Shown here piece by piece: positions 46,021-55,597 of a DNA stretch of 64,000 bases; positions within the stretch are counted from its first letter, which is position 1; each line of letters begins with the position of its first letter. A model generated the notes under the pieces. It saw nothing but the letters and a program-made list of their open reading frames with translations. It had not been told where the DNA came from and did no database searches. Source of the stretch: Sphingobacterium micropteri (GTDB lineage: Bacteria > Bacteroidota > Bacteroidia > Sphingobacteriales > Sphingobacteriaceae). The DNA is taken from positions 186,001-250,000 of the forward strand of contig NZ_JACOIK010000002.1 of NCBI RefSeq assembly GCF_014692515.1, written 5' to 3'. The position numbers and the translations under genes are program-made.

Positions 46021-46056
46021 CAGCTCGAAGATTTTTCTTCGGGCTGTTGTTTTTTC
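46021..46056 (+). terminator. Rho-independent terminator of metE
   Basis: CAGCTCGAAGA (46021-46031) pairs with TCTTCGGGCTG (46036-46046) with one wobble pair, followed by a T-rich run (TTGTTTTTT). Confidence 0.9.
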
Positions 46057-46116
46057 ATAAACGTAGAATTAACATTTTTTTTACAATAGCGGGTAGATTA
46101 CTTCAAATAAGCTTAG

Positions 46117-46124
46117 TAATTTTG
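46117..46124 (+). promoter_or_regulatory. -7 element placed for leaderless transcription
   Basis: TAATTTTG fits TAnnTTTG exactly and ends 7 bp before the ATG at 46131. The transcript would begin at or within a base or two of the start codon. No clear -33 element is visible. Confidence 0.45.
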
Positions 46125-46130
46125 CGGGGC

Positions 46131-46502
46131 ATGTTATTTAAGATCATTCATTCCATCGTGTTGCTGTGCTACCTGAATATTCTGGTTTATCAACCGGAGA
46201 CAGGTTTTGCTATGCGCTATGACGATTCGCTGTTGAATGGTGAATCGCTCTTGGAGATTGTTCTGGATGATGTGTTGGCGCTGCCGATCGATAAAGACGC
46301 GGCAGATGTGGAGATACTATACGACGAATATAGGTCGTATGAATACCAAATCTTTTCCTTACCATTTTTCGTATTGGTGTTGGCTGTCCTGTTTTCCTTT
46401 AAACAGTTGGCGTCCTATGTAAAACATCCGGTATACGACGGAAAGAAACGACGTATTATACCGGGCTATTACACACACTTGTATAGGCTACAACCTTTTT
46501 AG
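46131..46502 (+). CDS. Small membrane protein of unknown function
   Basis: This 123-residue protein starts at ATG 46131; an in-frame longer version beginning at 46047 would start inside the metE terminator and is rejected. It has hydrophobic segments at about 4-20 and 73-91, an acidic middle (ESLLEIVLDDVLALPIDKDAADVEILYDE) that probably faces the periplasm, and a basic C-terminal tail (YDGKKRRIIPGYY). I do not recognise the family. It lies 244 bp upstream of the efflux operon and seems to be transcribed independently. Confidence 0.6.
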   Translation: MLFKIIHSIVLLCYLNILVYQPETGFAMRYDDSLLNGESLLEIVLDDVLALPIDKDAADVEILYDEYRSYEYQIFSLPFFVLVLAVLFSFKQLASYVKHPVYDGKKRRIIPGYYTHLYRLQPF

Positions 46503-46746: not shown

Positions 46747-47850
46747 ATGAAGACACGTTCATTGGTATTCCCGGCAGTAGGATTGGCATTATTTGCGGGT
46801 AGTTGCACCGTTAAGAGTACGGAAAATAGTGCAGAGATGGTGAAGCAGGTACCTGTGGTAAGTCTTACCGTAATGGATACCACCGTTTATAAAGAATACA
46901 TTGCAGATATTCAGGCCACAAAAAATGTGGAGTTACGCTCGCGTTTAACCGGATTTTTGGAAAAGATATATGTAGATGAGGGTGCGCTGGTTAAGGCAGG
47001 CCAAGTTCTTTTCCAACTGAACAATGAAGAATATAAAGCAGATTATGCAAAGGCAGAGGCAGCGCTTAATATTGCCATTTCGGAAGCTAAAAAGGTAGAG
47101 TTAGAGAAGGAACGGACCAAGAAGTTAGTGGAGAAAAATATTGTATCTACAACAGAGGCCGATCTTATAGCTGTGCAATATAAGGCTGCGCTTTCCAAAA
47201 TAGAAGAAGCTAAAGCGGTGAAGAACCAGATGCAAACCAAACTCTCCCAAACGCTTATACGGGCGCCTTTCAATGGGCGTATTGACAGAATTCAACTTAA
47301 GGAGGGTTCTCTGCTGGAGGAGGGATCTTTAATAACGACCATATCCGACTTAGGGAAAGTTAACGTTTATTTTGATATTTCTGAATCAGAATATCTCGAT
47401 CTGGCTAGTGATTCCAATTTCCGTAGCAATACATTTAAGCGGGCCGTAAAGCTTGTTTTGGCAAATGGCGAGGAGTATCCGCATGGTGGAGAAGCAAAAA
47501 TTGTAGAAAGTGAGTTCAATCCTGGAACGGGCTCGATCTCGTTGCGTGCAAAATTTCCGAACGCAGACGGTTTATTAAAACATGGCGCATCCGGTAAGAT
47601 TGCTGTGCCTGTATCGACAGGTGACACGAAGTTTGTACACCAAAAATCGGTCGTGGAGATTCAAGACAAAGCCTATGTGTATGTTGTGGATGACAACTCT
47701 ACCGTGAAAATGCAACCTTTTCAGGCGGGAGCGCGTGTAGGACATTATTACATCGTCGAAGGTGGTCTCGATGACAACCAAAAGATTGTATTTGAAGGCG
47801 TTCGAGGGCTCCGCGATGGTATGAAAATAAAGTCGGTGACACAGCAATAA
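46747..47850 (+). CDS. RND efflux periplasmic adaptor (AcrA/MexA-type) lipoprotein
   Basis: This 367-residue membrane-fusion protein bridges the inner-membrane pump and outer-membrane channel of a tripartite efflux system. The lipobox FAGSC gives the lipidated C20. In order: a lipoyl-like first half (RSRLTGFLEKIYVDEGALVKAGQVLFQL, about 60-90), a coiled-coil hairpin (about 95-165), the second lipoyl half (LIRAPFNGRIDRIQLKEGSLLEEGSLI), a beta barrel and a membrane-proximal C-terminal part. It is complete and 38 bp upstream of the fused pump gene. Confidence 0.93.
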   Translation: MKTRSLVFPAVGLALFAGSCTVKSTENSAEMVKQVPVVSLTVMDTTVYKEYIADIQATKNVELRSRLTGFLEKIYVDEGALVKAGQVLFQLNNEEYKADYAKAEAALNIAISEAKKVELEKERTKKLVEKNIVSTTEADLIAVQYKAALSKIEEAKAVKNQMQTKLSQTLIRAPFNGRIDRIQLKEGSLLEEGSLITTISDLGKVNVYFDISESEYLDLASDSNFRSNTFKRAVKLVLANGEEYPHGGEAKIVESEFNPGTGSISLRAKFPNADGLLKHGASGKIAVPVSTGDTKFVHQKSVVEIQDKAYVYVVDDNSTVKMQPFQAGARVGHYYIVEGGLDDNQKIVFEGVRGLRDGMKIKSVTQQ

Positions 47851-47888: not shown

Positions 47889-50800
47889 ATGTTTGAAACT
47901 TATATAAAACGACCGGTTCTTTCGTTGGTGATCTCTATTTTTATCACCCTGTTGGGACTTTTGGCATTATTTACATTACCGATTACACAGTTTCCCGATA
48001 TTGTACCGCCATCTGTTGTGGTAACCGCAAATTATACCGGTGCGAATGCAGAAGTGAGTACCGATGCGGTAGCCATTCCGTTGGAAAGGGCAATTAATGG
48101 GGTCGCTGGTATGACTTCCATGAACACTGTTAGTACGAACAACGGGAGTACACTGATACAGATCACTTTTAATGTGGGGGTGGATCCGGATATTGCCTCG
48201 GTGAACGTCCAGAATAGAGTGGCGACGGTGCTCGATGAGCTTCCGGAGGAGGTTATCCGTGCAGGGGTTATTACCGAGAAAGAGGTAAACAGTATGCTGA
48301 TGTACCTCAATATTTATACAACTGATGAAACAGCCGACGAACGGTTTATTTATAACTTTACGGATATTAATATTCTGAAAGAGTTAAAACGGATCGAGGG
48401 GGTGGGCTTCGCGGAAATCATGGGTTTCAAAGACTATGCTATGCGGGTGTGGCTAAAGCCTGATCGGCTGGCGGCATACCAAATTTCTACCGAGGAGGTC
48501 ATTGAAGCACTACGCAGGCAGAATATTGAGGCAGCTCCGGGACAAACAGGAATTGGCTCGGATAAAACCGTGAACATGCAACAATACGTGTTACGTTATC
48601 CGGGACGGTTTACAGAGCCTGAAGAGTATGAAAATGTGCCTATCCGGGCGAATTCGGATGGTTCGATTCTGCGGATTCGGGATATAGCCGAGGTGGAGTT
48701 TGGTTCGCTGGAGTATGAAATGGCATCAAAAGCCGACGGTCGACCATCGGCCTCCATTATGATGAAGCAGCTCCCGGGATCGAATGCACAGGATGTAATC
48801 CAGCGTGTTAAAGATCGTATGGAAGAGTTGAAAGTGATGACTTTCCCTCCGGGAATGGAATATAGTATGGGATATGATGTCTCCCGGTTTTTGGATGCAT
48901 CCATGTCTAGTGTGATAAAAACGTTGATCGAAGCGTTTATCCTGGTCTTCTTGGTCGTGTTTATCTTCTTGCAGGATTTTAGAGCAACGATCATTCCCAT
49001 CCTTGCGGTTCCGGTTAGTTTAGTAGGAGCTCTGTTTTTTATGTTGATGATGGGTTTCTCTATTAACTTGTTAACGTTATTTGCGCTTGTCCTGGCCATT
49101 GGTATCGTCGTGGATAACGGTATTGTCGTGGTAGAAGCCGTCTTTGCCAAAATGGAGGAAGAGCATTTACCACCTATGGAGGCAACGCTTGCCGCTATGA
49201 AGGAGGTAGGCTCGGCAGTTATCGCCATCACGTTGGTGATGTCCGCGGTGTTTATCCCGGTAGCGTTCCTTTCCGGGCCAGTGGGTGTGTTTTATCGTCA
49301 GTTTTCGCTGACGCTGGCGGCAGCTATAGTGATTTCGGGAATTAACGCGTTAACCCTGACACCGGCTCTGTGTGCACTTATTCTTCGCTCGCCGCACGAC
49401 AAAAAAGAATCCAATAGCTGGTTAAGCAGATTCTTTAAAAAATTTAATGCGTCGTATGATAAAACCGCGGGCGGTTACAAAAAGCTGTTGACCCGTATTG
49501 CTGGACGCAGAATGGTAACGGTGGGCATGCTTATTTTCTTCTTTGTTGCCACCTGGGGTGCCAGTAGTATATTGCCATCGGGCTTTATTCCTACCGAAGA
49601 CCAGGGAATGGTGTATGTCAACGTCACAACGCCACCCGGTGCAACGGTGGACCGTACGGAACGGGCATTAAATGAAGTGGGCGAGATCGCCCGAAGCTTG
49701 GAATCGGTCGAGACCATATCTACACTTGCTGGATACAGCCTTTTAACGGAGGTGTCAGGTGCTTCTTATGGGATGGGAATGATCAACCTTAAACCTTGGG
49801 ATGAACGTGATGTGACGGTGGACGACGTGATGCGGGAATTACAGGAGAAGACGGCGCATATAGCGGACGCCGAGATTGAGTTTTTTCCACCACCGACCGT
49901 TCCAGGATTCGGTAATGCTTCAGGTTTTGAGTTACGGTTACTGGACCGTAGCGGAAATGAAGATTTAAATCAAACGGCGGAAGTTGTCGAAGATTTTATA
50001 ACGGCTCTTAACAACTCGGAGGCTATTGAAGGGGTTTCTTCCAGTTTTGATGTGAGTTTCCCGCAATATATGCTAGAGGTGGATTATGATATGGCTGCTA
50101 AGCGGGGAATTTCAGTAGAAAATGCCATGACAACCTTGCAGACATTAATGGGGAGTTTTTATGCGACCAACTTTATTCGCTTCGGCCAGATGTATAAGGT
50201 TATGGTGCAGGCCGATCCACATTACCGGCAGCGGCCGGAGGACGTCTTAAATTTATTTGTAAAGACGGCAGATGGCGAAATGGTGCCGTATTCTTCGTTC
50301 ATCCAGATGAAGCGTATTTACGGACCGGAGCAGATAACGCGGTATAATATGTTTACATCAGCGATGTTAAATGGCCAACCAGCACCCGGATTCAGTACGG
50401 GGCAGGCTATTGAAACGATCCAACAGCTGGCAGAGCAATTGCCGCAAGGGTATGTAATCGAATGGGCGGGCATGACACGCGAGCAGGTTATTTCAGGAAA
50501 CCAAGCCGTTTATATTTTTGCGCTGTGTCTGATTTTTGTGTATTTATTGCTTTCGGCACAATACGAAAGTTTCTTGTTACCACTCCCCGTTATCCTTGGG
50601 TTGCCGGCAGGTATTTTTGGCTCTTTCTTGTTTCTAAAATTGCTGGGATTGGAGAATGATATTTATGCACAGGTGGCCTTGGTGATGTTGATCGGTCTAC
50701 TCGGAAAGAATGCGATTTTAATTGTGGAATATGCAGTGCTAAAACAAAAACAAGGTATGAGTATATTACAGGCAGCGATCGAAGGTGCTTATGTCAGGCT

Positions 50801-52469
50801 ACGCCCGATATTGATGACATCGTTCGCGATTATCGCTGGATTGATACCTTTAATGCTGGCTTCCGGTGCAGGTGCTATTGGAAACCGAACGATCGGTACG
50901 GCATCTGTTGGTGGGATGTTAATTGGGACGTTATTTGGCGTAATTATTATTCCCGGATTATATGTGCTATGTTCGCGTAAGAAAAAGGAAAAGAAAGTAA
51001 ACAAGGAGAGGGTGATAACCAACGTCGTCACATTATTGGCCATTACGGGGTTAATTGTATCGTGTAGTGTGCCCAAGCAGCTGGAAAAAGGAACACATGC
51101 TGAATTGCCGACGCAGTTTAATGGGGATAGTCTGACGCTAGTAGACGCAGATACGACAAATATCGCCTACCAACCTTGGAAGGATGTCTTTACGGATCCG
51201 TACTTAAAAGAATTGATCGATTCGGCATTAGTCTATAATTATGATTTGCAGCAAGCTGTACAGCGGATCGAAATTGCACAGGCGAGCTTTAAGCAACGAA
51301 AAGCGGCTTTATTGCCTAGCTTAGATCTGGCGGCCGAAGCGGGATTACGGAAGTATGGGTTCTATACCGAAGAGGGTATAGGGAATTATGATTCGAATTT
51401 TTCGGAAAATTTGAAGGACGATGAAAAAATACCCGAACCGGCTATTCCTGATTATTTTGTAGGTGTTCGGGCTTCTTGGGAGTTGGACTTATGGGGCAAG
51501 CTACGTGCACATAAAAATGCGGCGTTTAACAGTTTATTGGCAGAGAACGAAGCGAGAAGGCTGGTGGAAACGGAGCTGGTGACCAATATTGCGTCTGCGT
51601 ATTATGAGTTGCTGAGCTTGGATGCGAAGATTAATGTTTTTAATAACAATATCGTATTGAATGAGCAGGCTTTGGAGATCACCGAATTACAGAAAGATGC
51701 GGGGCGTGCTACGCAGCTTGGCGTACAACAGTTTAAAGCTTTTTTGGCAAATTCGCGAGGCGAGCGCGAACGGATTAGACAAGAGATTGTACTACTGGAA
51801 CACCATATCAACTATTTGACAGGAAGCTTTAATACAGCGGTGCAACGCACAGAAAGTGGTTTTGGCGCGCTGCCTTTATTCGATAAGCTGGATGTAGGCG
51901 CACCTTTTCAAATGCTTGCCCTGCGACCGGATATTAGGGAAGCCTCGTTTCAGCTTATCGGAGCGGAGCAGGATGTGAAGTTTGCCAAGGCTGCGTTTCT
52001 GCCTAGTGTGGTGCTGTCGCCGTTTGTTGGTTTACAATCGTTTACGTTTAACAAGCTGGTCGATCTGGATAAGTCATTAACCTATGGTTTAGCGGGCGGA
52101 CTGACAGCGCCGATTTTCAATCAGCGCCAGCTTAAAAGTCAGTATGAAACCTACAAAGCGATGTATGGACTAAGCTTTTTGGAATATGAAAAGCGGGTGC
52201 TTAATGCCTATAACGAAGTTTCGAATGCCATAAAAACCCAAGACCATATCGAGCAACGGCAGCAGTATATCCAAGAGGAAGTGGAGGCACTCAAAGGTGC
52301 CGTGGCTGCGGCGAATGAATTATTTATTGCCGGACGTGTATCTTACCTGGAAATTATTACGGCACAAAAAGATGCGGTAGCCGCTGAATTAGATGAGGTG
52401 GAAGTACAGAAAGAAGAATTGTTGAATGAGATTGTCATTTACAAGGCACTTGGAGGAGGCTGGCAATAG
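47889..52469 (+). CDS. RND pump fused to a TolC-type outer-membrane factor
   Basis: A single uninterrupted frame of 1526 residues contains two complete proteins. Residues 1-1030 are an AcrB-type HAE1 RND pump with 12 membrane helices, the proton-relay aspartate D409 (VVDNGIVVVEAV; the second Asp of AcrB is N410 here), K940 (LGKNAILIVEYA) and the docking domains. Residues 1059-1526 are an OprM/TolC-like outer-membrane factor with both OEP repeats (PWKDVFTDPYLKELID; LRPDIREASFQLIGAEQDVKFAKAAFLPSV; a last repeat ending KALGGGW). The junction 1030-1058 is a very basic stretch (KKKEKKVNKER) and a hydrophobic segment ending in a lipobox, IVSC with C1059. If signal peptidase II cleaves there, the product matures into two proteins. 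An in-frame GTG at 51012 could also start the second part separately. Adaptor and pump genes are adjacent, so the whole tripartite machine is encoded in two genes. Confidence 0.9.
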   Translation: MFETYIKRPVLSLVISIFITLLGLLALFTLPITQFPDIVPPSVVVTANYTGANAEVSTDAVAIPLERAINGVAGMTSMNTVSTNNGSTLIQITFNVGVDPDIASVNVQNRVATVLDELPEEVIRAGVITEKEVNSMLMYLNIYTTDETADERFIYNFTDINILKELKRIEGVGFAEIMGFKDYAMRVWLKPDRLAAYQISTEEVIEALRRQNIEAAPGQTGIGSDKTVNMQQYVLRYPGRFTEPEEYENVPIRANSDGSILRIRDIAEVEFGSLEYEMASKADGRPSASIMMKQLPGSNAQDVIQRVKDRMEELKVMTFPPGMEYSMGYDVSRFLDASMSSVIKTLIEAFILVFLVVFIFLQDFRATIIPILAVPVSLVGALFFMLMMGFSINLLTLFALVLAIGIVVDNGIVVVEAVFAKMEEEHLPPMEATLAAMKEVGSAVIAITLVMSAVFIPVAFLSGPVGVFYRQFSLTLAAAIVISGINALTLTPALCALILRSPHDKKESNSWLSRFFKKFNASYDKTAGGYKKLLTRIAGRRMVTVGMLIFFFVATWGASSILPSGFIPTEDQGMVYVNVTTPPGATVDRTERALNEVGEIARSLESVETISTLAGYSLLTEVSGASYGMGMINLKPWDERDVTVDDVMRELQEKTAHIADAEIEFFPPPTVPGFGNASGFELRLLDRSGNEDLNQTAEVVEDFITALNNSEAIEGVSSSFDVSFPQYMLEVDYDMAAKRGISVENAMTTLQTLMGSFYATNFIRFGQMYKVMVQADPHYRQRPEDVLNLFVKTADGEMVPYSSFIQMKRIYGPEQITRYNMFTSAMLNGQPAPGFSTGQAIETIQQLAEQLPQGYVIEWAGMTREQVISGNQAVYIFALCLIFVYLLLSAQYESFLLPLPVILGLPAGIFGSFLFLKLLGLENDIYAQVALVMLIGLLGKNAILIVEYAVLKQKQGMSILQAAIEGAYVRLRPILMTSFAIIAGLIPLMLASGAGAIGNRTIGTASVGGMLIGTLFGVIIIPGLYVLCSRKKKEKKVNKERVITNVVTLLAITGLIVSCSVPKQLEKGTHAELPTQFNGDSLTLVDADTTNIAYQPWKDVFTDPYLKELIDSALVYNYDLQQAVQRIEIAQASFKQRKAALLPSLDLAAEAGLRKYGFYTEEGIGNYDSNFSENLKDDEKIPEPAIPDYFVGVRASWELDLWGKLRAHKNAAFNSLLAENEARRLVETELVTNIASAYYELLSLDAKINVFNNNIVLNEQALEITELQKDAGRATQLGVQQFKAFLANSRGERERIRQEIVLLEHHINYLTGSFNTAVQRTESGFGALPLFDKLDVGAPFQMLALRPDIREASFQLIGAEQDVKFAKAAFLPSVVLSPFVGLQSFTFNKLVDLDKSLTYGLAGGLTAPIFNQRQLKSQYETYKAMYGLSFLEYEKRVLNAYNEVSNAIKTQDHIEQRQQYIQEEVEALKGAVAAANELFIAGRVSYLEIITAQKDAVAAELDEVEVQKEELLNEIVIYKALGGGWQ

Positions 52470-54106: not shown

Positions 54107-55597
54107 CTAATTAATCCCTTTAAATATTCTATTCCATCGTATTTTAGAAAGGAATGTTCCTTTTTCATCCCAGCTCATCCAAGTAAATAATGCTTTGCCG
54201 ACGATATGATCTTCGGGTACAAAACCCCATGAACGGGAGTCTAATGAGTTATGTCTGTTATCGCCCATCATCCAATAATAGTTTTGTTTAAAGGTATAGC
54301 TTGTTACCTTTTCACCGTTAATATAATAGTCCCCGGCTTTTTTCTCTAGCGTATTGCCTTCGTAATCACGTATGGCGCGACCGTATAGTGGAACGGTAAG
54401 GGAATCTAGGTTTACCGTCCATCCTTTAGCAGGAATGGTGAGTGGCCCGAAATTATCAATGGTCCAATTATAGTGTTTGTCATGCGGATAGGCAATTGAG
54501 CTCTCGTCAATGATCATTTCTACATCCTGTACATTTCCCCAATTCTTAATCATTTCGGCTTGCGGTACCGTCATGTGCATCATGAAGACGCTGGGATCAG
54601 ACATTTGTTGAAAATCTATACGTAAATCGTGCATCCTCTCACGGTTGAGCCCTGATCCATCTGTATAAACAAAATAGGCATGTTGCATCTCTGGAGGGGT
54701 AAAGGCTGGTTCACCATTTATCAGCAGTTTTGCCCGTTCTAGCGATACGACGTCACCGGGCATTCCAACGCAACGTTTGATATAGTTTTCACGCTTATCG
54801 ATTGGACGGGTGACAATGGTAAATTGATTGTGCACTGTTTCTTTTCCCATATTGCGTACGAGATCCGCATAGGTAGTTTCTTGATATTCCAAAGCTACGG
54901 TGTCTCCAGCCGGAAAATTGAAAACGACTACATCATTCCGCTTTATTTCTTGAAAACCAGGTAGACGCTTGTAAGGCAACTGTATCACTTCGGAATAGGC
55001 TTTACCTCCTGTCATGGGCATGGTGTGGTGCGCGAATGGAAAAGCAATAGGGGTGATGGGAACACGTGGTCCATAATTCAGCTTGCTCACAAACAAGAAG
55101 TCACCAATCAATAAGCTGCGTTCCATGGATCCGGTAGGAATCATATAGGCCTCGATCAGAAAGCCTCGAATCAAAGAAGCCGCTATCGTAGCAAAAATAA
55201 TCGCATCTGCCCATTCCCGTGCTACGGATTTCTTGTAAGGGTATTTTTTATGAAATCCTTCCGTATTAGACTGCCCTAGATATTTTATGTTGGGATCTCT
55301 TCCCCAAAGCGGCAAAAATATAAATGGTAATAATACGGCAACAACGGTTTCCCAAAAGCGACGCTTGCCGAAACTTTTTAGAAAATCGAGATATAGCGCA
55401 TAAAAAATAAATATATTGACGATGGGCACCAAAAGGAGGATGACCCACCATGTGGGGCGAGCTGTCAATTGGGCCATGATATATTCCCGGTAAAAGGGAA
55501 TAACAGCTTCCCAACCTTGCTTTCCAGCCTTTCTGAATAGCAACCACAGTCCGTATAGCGTGGCAATAATTAATATGAAGAAAATAATATAGTACAT
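54107..55597 (-). CDS. lepB: Signal peptidase I, extended form
   Basis: This 496-residue enzyme removes signal peptides from exported proteins; it is about twice the size of short bacterial forms. Residues 1-100 form an extra membrane-spanning region (three hydrophobic segments at about 3-20, 50-70 and 83-97). The peptidase starts near 130, with the catalytic serine S157 (MIPTGSMERS), the general-base lysine K274 (NYIKRCVGMPGD) and the last family box GDNRHNSLDSRSWGFVP. About 150 residues are inserted between the lysine box and this last box. Bacteroidota LepB proteins are generally long. It follows dapB in an apparent minus-strand operon. Confidence 0.93.
   Translation of the reverse strand: MYYIIFFILIIATLYGLWLLFRKAGKQGWEAVIPFYREYIMAQLTARPTWWVILLLVPIVNIFIFYALYLDFLKSFGKRRFWETVVAVLLPFIFLPLWGRDPNIKYLGQSNTEGFHKKYPYKKSVAREWADAIIFATIAASLIRGFLIEAYMIPTGSMERSLLIGDFLFVSKLNYGPRVPITPIAFPFAHHTMPMTGGKAYSEVIQLPYKRLPGFQEIKRNDVVVFNFPAGDTVALEYQETTYADLVRNMGKETVHNQFTIVTRPIDKRENYIKRCVGMPGDVVSLERAKLLINGEPAFTPPEMQHAYFVYTDGSGLNRERMHDLRIDFQQMSDPSVFMMHMTVPQAEMIKNWGNVQDVEMIIDESSIAYPHDKHYNWTIDNFGPLTIPAKGWTVNLDSLTVPLYGRAIRDYEGNTLEKKAGDYYINGEKVTSYTFKQNYYWMMGDNRHNSLDSRSWGFVPEDHIVGKALFTWMSWDEKGTFLSKIRWNRIFKGIN

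Follow-up and report, generated by a model that had tools for sequence, protein, structure and literature searches.

One open reading frame for a multidrug-type RND pump and its outer-membrane channel in Sphingobacterium: a probable signal peptidase polyprotein

How can the product of a single gene serve two membranes? The question is raised by a locus of Sphingobacterium micropteri, situated in a stretch of 64,000 nucleotides (contig NZ_JACOIK010000002.1, positions 186,001 to 250,000 of the forward strand) that is here called the window. An ORF scan reveals a single stop-free frame of 1526 codons with an ATG start at positions 47889–52469 of the plus strand. By Pfam and NCBIfam matches and its sequence, it comprises an RND pump, a segment resembling a signal anchor with a lipobox, and an outer-membrane factor (OMF). 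The parts are ordinary, and fusions of this kind are already in the databases, where they figure as long 'permeases'.

An earlier note, made from the letters of the window, had claimed that a full AcrB-like pump and a full OprM/TolC-like factor share this frame. The profile searches bear this out. Residues 1–1028 (47889–50972, plus strand) are a pump of the HAE-1 type: ACR_tran of Pfam covers just this part with 989 bits, and the NCBIfam model of efflux RND permeases, TIGR00915, matches in full length at residues 2–1043 with 1042.6 bits, the cut-off being 940.35. Residues 1059–1526 (51063–52466, plus strand) are an OMF of the NodT/OprM/CusC type. Pfam's OEP is found there as two stretches, the better one at 1106–1312, and outer_NodT (TIGR01845) matches in full length at residues 1057–1524 with 264.9 bits against a cut-off of 210.05. 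The periplasmic adaptor (RND_mfp; TIGR01730, 237.4 bits, cut-off 94.9) has its own gene at 46747–47850 on the plus strand, with a lipoprotein-like start (FAGSC), and ends 38 bases before the fusion begins. Two genes thus provide the three parts of the pump. Between a methionine-synthase-like gene and the adaptor there is a further plus-strand ORF of 151 residues with a TTG start (46047–46502), which lacks a Pfam match and may be no gene.

The proton-relay residues of AcrB are D407, D408, K940 and R971. In the pump of the window the first aspartate (residue 409) and the lysine and arginine motifs are present, and residues 409–410 (49113–49118) read Asp-Asn. The same pair is seen in a total of 115 of 120 fused pumps, the best 120 of 235 matches (see below), the window included; four have Asp-Asp and one is unmatched. 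Asp-Asn also occurs in the unfused loci L073 and L003, and Asp-Asp in the fused loci L086–L088. The exchange is therefore not tied to fusion.

The named loci nearest to the OMF of the window belong to Sphingobacterium, with 94% identity over this part. Among its solved relatives by sequence are OprM, SilC and CusC, and the predicted model matches the fold of CusC and OprM. The quality of the model is modest (mean pLDDT 65.9, below 50 for residues 1–76), and its weak N-terminus means that the model does not place the first residue, Cys1059. Alignments are more telling here. The distance from Cys1059 to a tryptophan is 38 residues, the matching tryptophan of OprM being at chain position 40, and residue 13 of the CusC chain aligns 13 residues behind Cys1059. 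The solved chains of OprM and CusC presumably begin at the lipidated cysteine. The offset to CusC thus implies a near-normal length before the barrel, with no spare tether.

The junction of the window protein reads CSRKKKEKKVNKERVITNVVTLLAITGLIVSC. A lysine-rich tail (residues 1029–1041; 50973–51011), predicted to be cytoplasmic, stands where the n-region of a signal peptide is expected. It is followed by a hydrophobic segment (residues 1042–1058; 51012–51062), predicted to be a 13th helix or the h-region of a signal peptide, and this by the lipobox I-V-S-C (residues 1056–1059; 51054–51065), with a predicted cut by signal peptidase II (SPII) before Cys1059. The first codon of the hydrophobic segment is an in-frame GTG (51012–51014), 17 codons before the cysteine, which, judged from the sequence and from comparison within the clade, might be an extra internal start. 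All these elements are on the plus strand. The hydrophobic segment, the lipobox and the basic pump end had been named in the earlier note, and its coordinates prove exact: residues 1028–1042 have a net charge of +6, and the hydrophobic peak starts at 1042. The site was called from motif, hydropathy, charge and conservation rather than by a trained signal-peptide predictor.

The spread of this architecture was addressed with residues 1020–1526, i.e., junction plus OMF, as query against proteins of 839–2670 residues (E ≤ 1e-3). There were 235 matches among 7990 scored candidates, and the best 120, the window's own included, were examined. Of these 120, 113 exceed 1400 residues, the window's own among them, and the frame is real. 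Those of the best 120 matches that carry an organism name belong to Sphingobacterium and Pedobacter; our genome collection adds loci of Parapedobacter and Olivibacter. In the own genus, 17 of 18 genomes possess the fusion by a frame length of 1516–1532, G003 having none among the matches listed. Of 151 genomes sampled from the family, 30 have a fused frame of more than 1500 residues, including 16 of the 19 own-genus genomes with a match listed; 25 of the 151 gave no match. The 29 best-matching rows of this family search, reaching down to 48% identity, are all fused. The commonness of such fusions, which the earlier note could not judge, is thereby known in part, namely for the genus and, for the metal class discussed below, for 80 genomes of the phylum.

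Cys1059 is present in each of the 120 proteins, i.e., the window's own and 119 relatives. In 70 representatives of these, sharing less than 90% identity, it is the sole invariant column between residues 1028 and 1075; at the other positions the commonest symbol accounts for 19–97% of the rows. Of course, the conservation of a cysteine as such is not unique, since Cys495 and Cys880 of the pump core are nearly invariant, too (70 and 69 of the 70). A fair comparison is offered by Cys1028, where TM12 ends, 31 residues upstream of Cys1059; only five of the 70 have a cysteine there. A lipobox in the broad sense precedes Cys1059 in all 120 (best 120 of 235); the strict form, [LVI][ASTVI][GAS]C, is found in 91 and departed from in 29.

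At the DNA level, 40 distinct fused loci were compared, including that of the window. Seven duplicates and repeats (L024, L025, L027, L045, L051, L072, L073) had been removed from the set of loci before any counts were made. Measured between the last residue of TM12 and the cysteine, the linkers range from 24 to 61 residues. All tails but that of L037, which has an acidic insert, carry a positive net charge (+2 to +9; 39 of 40). A script detected the hydrophobic stretch before the cysteine in 39, while L044 had to be judged by eye for both linker and hydrophobic stretch. A basic n-region, a hydrophobic h-region and a lipobox ending in cysteine are all kept in the relatives, which by motif and composition is what defines an SPII-type lipoprotein signal. 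Long acidic or glycine-rich inserts before the hydrophobic stretch are seen in L037 (genome G136) and in proteins P0100, P0107, P0111 and P0117; the linker tolerates large insertions.

The fusion product is most probably a polyprotein. Its junction would enter the inner membrane as a 13th helix and be cut by SPII in front of Cys1059, whereupon the lipidated channel would leave for the outer membrane and the pump would stay. The C-terminus of AcrB-type pumps lies in the cytoplasm. The lysine-rich tail would keep the following hydrophobic segment in an N-in/C-out orientation, which is the topology of a signal peptide. Lipidation and cleavage at IVSC, to which the invariant lipobox points, would free a normal NodT-type OMF, and residues 1042–1058 would remain on the pump as a stub. 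Assembly would then bring together the trimers of OMF and pump and the adaptor made from its own gene. In this scheme the single frame, its conservation, the invariant cysteine, the kinship, the two genes of the nearest unfused relatives and the repeated fusions that keep a site are observed; the 13th helix, the SPII cut, the lipid, the passage of the OMF to the outer membrane and a 1:1 supply as the benefit are what we infer. An LspA-like gene for the enzyme, signal peptidase II, is present in the own genome (111.5 bits). The third gene behind the fusion (54107–55597, minus strand) is signal peptidase I-like (Peptidase_S26 plus DUF5684), probably by coincidence.

Why pump and channel, and not the adaptor? 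OprM, MexA and MexB occur in a ratio of 1:2:1 (PMC6447562). Precisely the two subunits required in equal amounts are united in the fusion; the adaptor, needed twice, is excluded. The topology of the neighbouring pair, with a cytoplasmic pump end and behind it a signal peptide that begins on the same side of the membrane, also lets the two be joined simply by losing the stop codon. Among the TIGR01730 frames listed for 80 phylum genomes none reaches 1000 residues, the longest having 956. This lack of long adaptor fusions fits the ratio idea and plain topology alike and does not discriminate between them.

The nearest unfused relatives, 14 loci (L053–L066), have pump and OMF as two adjoining genes. 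In 13 of them the open frame of the OMF starts between 70 bases before and 4 bases after the pump stop; in L056 the first methionine of the OMF is just behind this stop. The unfused OMFs start with a short signal-peptide-like stretch ending in cysteine, the endings of L064 (FSNC) and L066 (LNGC) being outside the lipobox pattern. Trees were built for the OMF and for the last 240 pump residues from 40 fused and 14 separate rows; L056, L064 and L066 were left out, the latter two being considered in a class-wide tree and L056 by eye. In both trees the 40 fused genes are on one side of a single branch (support 99/99 and 94/82), a grouping that makes a single origin within the family the simplest reading. 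The OMF identity of the more distant fused members goes down to 42–57%.

The 40 loci had been picked as open frames, and the absence of stops in them is thus partly a matter of selection. A fairer test is the presence of separate genes inside the fused group, and there are none in the tree with 14 separate rows; nor did this sample of 40 fused and 14 separate genes contain a return to two genes. Close relatives with two genes, which the earlier note had named as counter-evidence, do exist, but only outside the fused clade. Most simply, then, the fusion of the Sphingobacterium-type family would have arisen once, in effect via loss of a stop, and was kept thereafter. Pairs separated by no more than a stop can still be found: in L004 of the own genome (C6:9909-14528) and in L067 (G175:C12) pump and OMF are in frame and parted by one TAA. 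The 1547-residue frame at G175:C12 was accordingly rejected as a fusion. Two NodT frames of 806 residues (G048, G064) were discarded because they run into the shadow sequence of another frame, as was a 980-residue NodT frame at G064:C31, which has 482 residues between its two TGA stops.

The family is not alone. Among 247 genomes of the class (E ≤ 1e-68), four further NodT fusions were detected outside the family, L086, L087, L088 and L089. After a hydrophobic stretch their junctions end in FSSC, LASC, LSAC and FYGC, respectively, the last being a loose lipobox. A class-wide OMF tree of 21 fused and 31 separate genes requires five label changes between the two states, which are forced by well-supported branches (5–95% bootstrap range 5 to 5). 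L086 is on a long branch, and its exact placement is unsure. The simplest reading of the tree would be five gains of fusion; by count alone, losses are indistinguishable from gains.

A second class of fusions concerns CusA/CzcA pumps. The own genome harbours one of them, L006 (G000:C9:13955), with a frame of 1482 residues and a junction of the signal peptidase I (SPI) type. With its OMF alone as query (residues 1100–1482), 672 of 4539 candidates, all of pump-plus length, matched. A previous count of 7456 matches among 7999 is withdrawn, since the query contained about 47 residues of the pump end and may have collected unfused pumps. Of 80 phylum genomes, 32 have CusA/CzcA frames of 1437–1523 residues (36 rows), and they come from many families. 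Their junctions are devoid of a lipobox. Instead, xxAQ is found within 75 residues of the pump end in 63 of 65 representatives (among the matches listed). Of the 36 phylum-wide loci, L102 could not be parsed, and in L100 and L103 the script set the cut wrongly; xx[AGS]Q is present in 34 of the 35 parsed junctions, L111 lacking it, and L100, L102, L103 and L111 look signal-peptide-like by eye.

That an OMF of the lipoprotein kind goes with an SPII junction, and the metal class with an SPI junction, is predicted by cleavage and not by a fusion that stays intact. Comparison thus speaks for the SPII-cut polyprotein that the earlier note had proposed: the lipobox cysteine is invariant amid a varying linker, fusions that stand apart in the tree keep a site of the same kind, the other class shows an SPI-type site in its place, and a gene for signal peptidase II is at hand.

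There is, however, another way to a free channel. The OMF might be made separately by internal initiation at the GTG at 51012 or nearby, the read-through frame being incidental. The GTG would yield a well-formed lipoprotein signal peptide of 17 residues, and AAGGAGAGG lies directly upstream. An ATG or GTG lies at −17 to −20 in each of the nine loci of the clade of the window (L005, L009–L016), and among the 40 fused loci 12 show an ATG within −35 to −14. Similarly, in the CusA/CzcA class a methionine lies upstream of the site in 35 of 65 representatives (among the matches listed), and by script a possible start (ATG, GTG or TTG) is in range in 30 of 35 parsed loci. Yet 20 of the 40 fused loci have none of these three codons between −35 and −14, three have none from TM12 to the cysteine, and L088, a fusion of another family, equally lacks a start codon in that range. 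Nor do GTG (13 seen, 10.5 expected) and TTG (2 seen, 2.8 expected) stand clearly above what the codon use of these genes predicts. With half of the loci devoid of a start, internal initiation fails as a general mechanism of the HAE-1 class. In the clade of the window it could supply extra OMF and would then loosen the 1:1 ratio. Even there every ribosome that has translated the pump goes on into the OMF, and the full chain remains to be handled, which means that it would still need cutting. We consider separate synthesis of the OMF an unlikely explanation of the locus.

Alternatively, pump and channel might stay covalently linked and work as one uncut chain, in which the junction is a 13th transmembrane helix. 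The single frame complies with this idea, and the cutting is itself deduced rather than seen. The geometry is unfavourable, though: the pump resides in the inner membrane, and the N-terminus of OprM is lipid-anchored at the outer membrane, (PMC8277102), and MexB has no contact with OprM in the assembled MexAB-OprM, which is about 320 Å long (PMC6447562). An uncut design also explains neither the invariant lipobox cysteine nor the SPI-type site of the other fusion class, which makes it very improbable. That a stop codon at the junction was simply missed in sequencing or assembly might be suspected from the abutting genes of the nearest unfused relatives and the two pairs split by a single TAA, but an artefact is hardly conceivable when 40 loci, none identical to another, taken from many assemblies and varying in their linkers, all have the frame open, when 113 of the best 120 matches exceed 1400 residues and when all 120 keep Cys1059.

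The polyprotein reading can be extended to the phylum. Bacteroidota have probably converted pump and channel genes into signal-peptidase polyproteins several times, with SPII for the multidrug and SPI for the metal systems, and have joined only the subunits that are used 1:1; many hundreds and probably thousands of 'RND permeases' would then be a pump plus a channel that part in the inner membrane. If this is true, housekeeping signal peptidases serve as polyprotein proteases across a phylum, and one translation product supplies two membranes. Pump and exit duct would be delivered in a fixed 1:1 ratio. Further, the C-terminal third of at least hundreds of entries called 'efflux RND transporter permease' or 'CusA/CzcA' would be an outer-membrane channel, and these entries would have to be re-annotated. 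The coexistence of fused and unfused sister systems in one bacterial family, finally, amounts to a natural experiment on what the ratio of OMF to pump is worth.

How does this compare with known systems? In the open-access literature, surveyed mostly by titles and abstracts, we found no paper that describes a naturally fused RND pump and OMF or how such a protein is processed. MexAB-OprM and AcrAB-TolC, the classical HAE-1 systems, share all three parts with the window, i.e., permease, RND_mfp adaptor and NodT/OprM-type OMF. The gene order of MexAB-OprM, adaptor, pump, OMF, is also that of the window. The difference is that their pump and OMF are separate proteins, whereas the window has one ORF for both. 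In Pseudoalteromonas the QsdH-RND fusion is a described case of an RND permease whose ORF also encodes an additional exported domain (PMC3466314). There the extra part is an N-terminal hydrolase and not an OMF, and the authors propose a signal peptide that remains uncut.

The CusA/CzcA (HME) pumps of Bacteroidota, whose annotation gives one protein of about 1450 residues, likewise consist of pump and OMF in frame with a signal peptide of the cleavable type in between. They differ from the fusion of the window in the pump subfamily and in the OMF, in an SPI-type site with a small residue before Q, and in being more widespread.

A precedent for the processing is fbcH of Bradyrhizobium japonicum, which encodes cytochromes b and c1 as a polyprotein that is cut by signal peptidase. 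A polytopic membrane protein is there followed in frame by a protein with a signal peptide of its own. The sequence of the window suggests the same architecture, in which a signal peptide of the cleavable type stands between two mature-protein regions of a single ORF. The two products of fbcH, however, remain in one membrane and one complex and are parted by SPI, whereas the second product of the window would be cut by SPII, lipidated and sent to the outer membrane.
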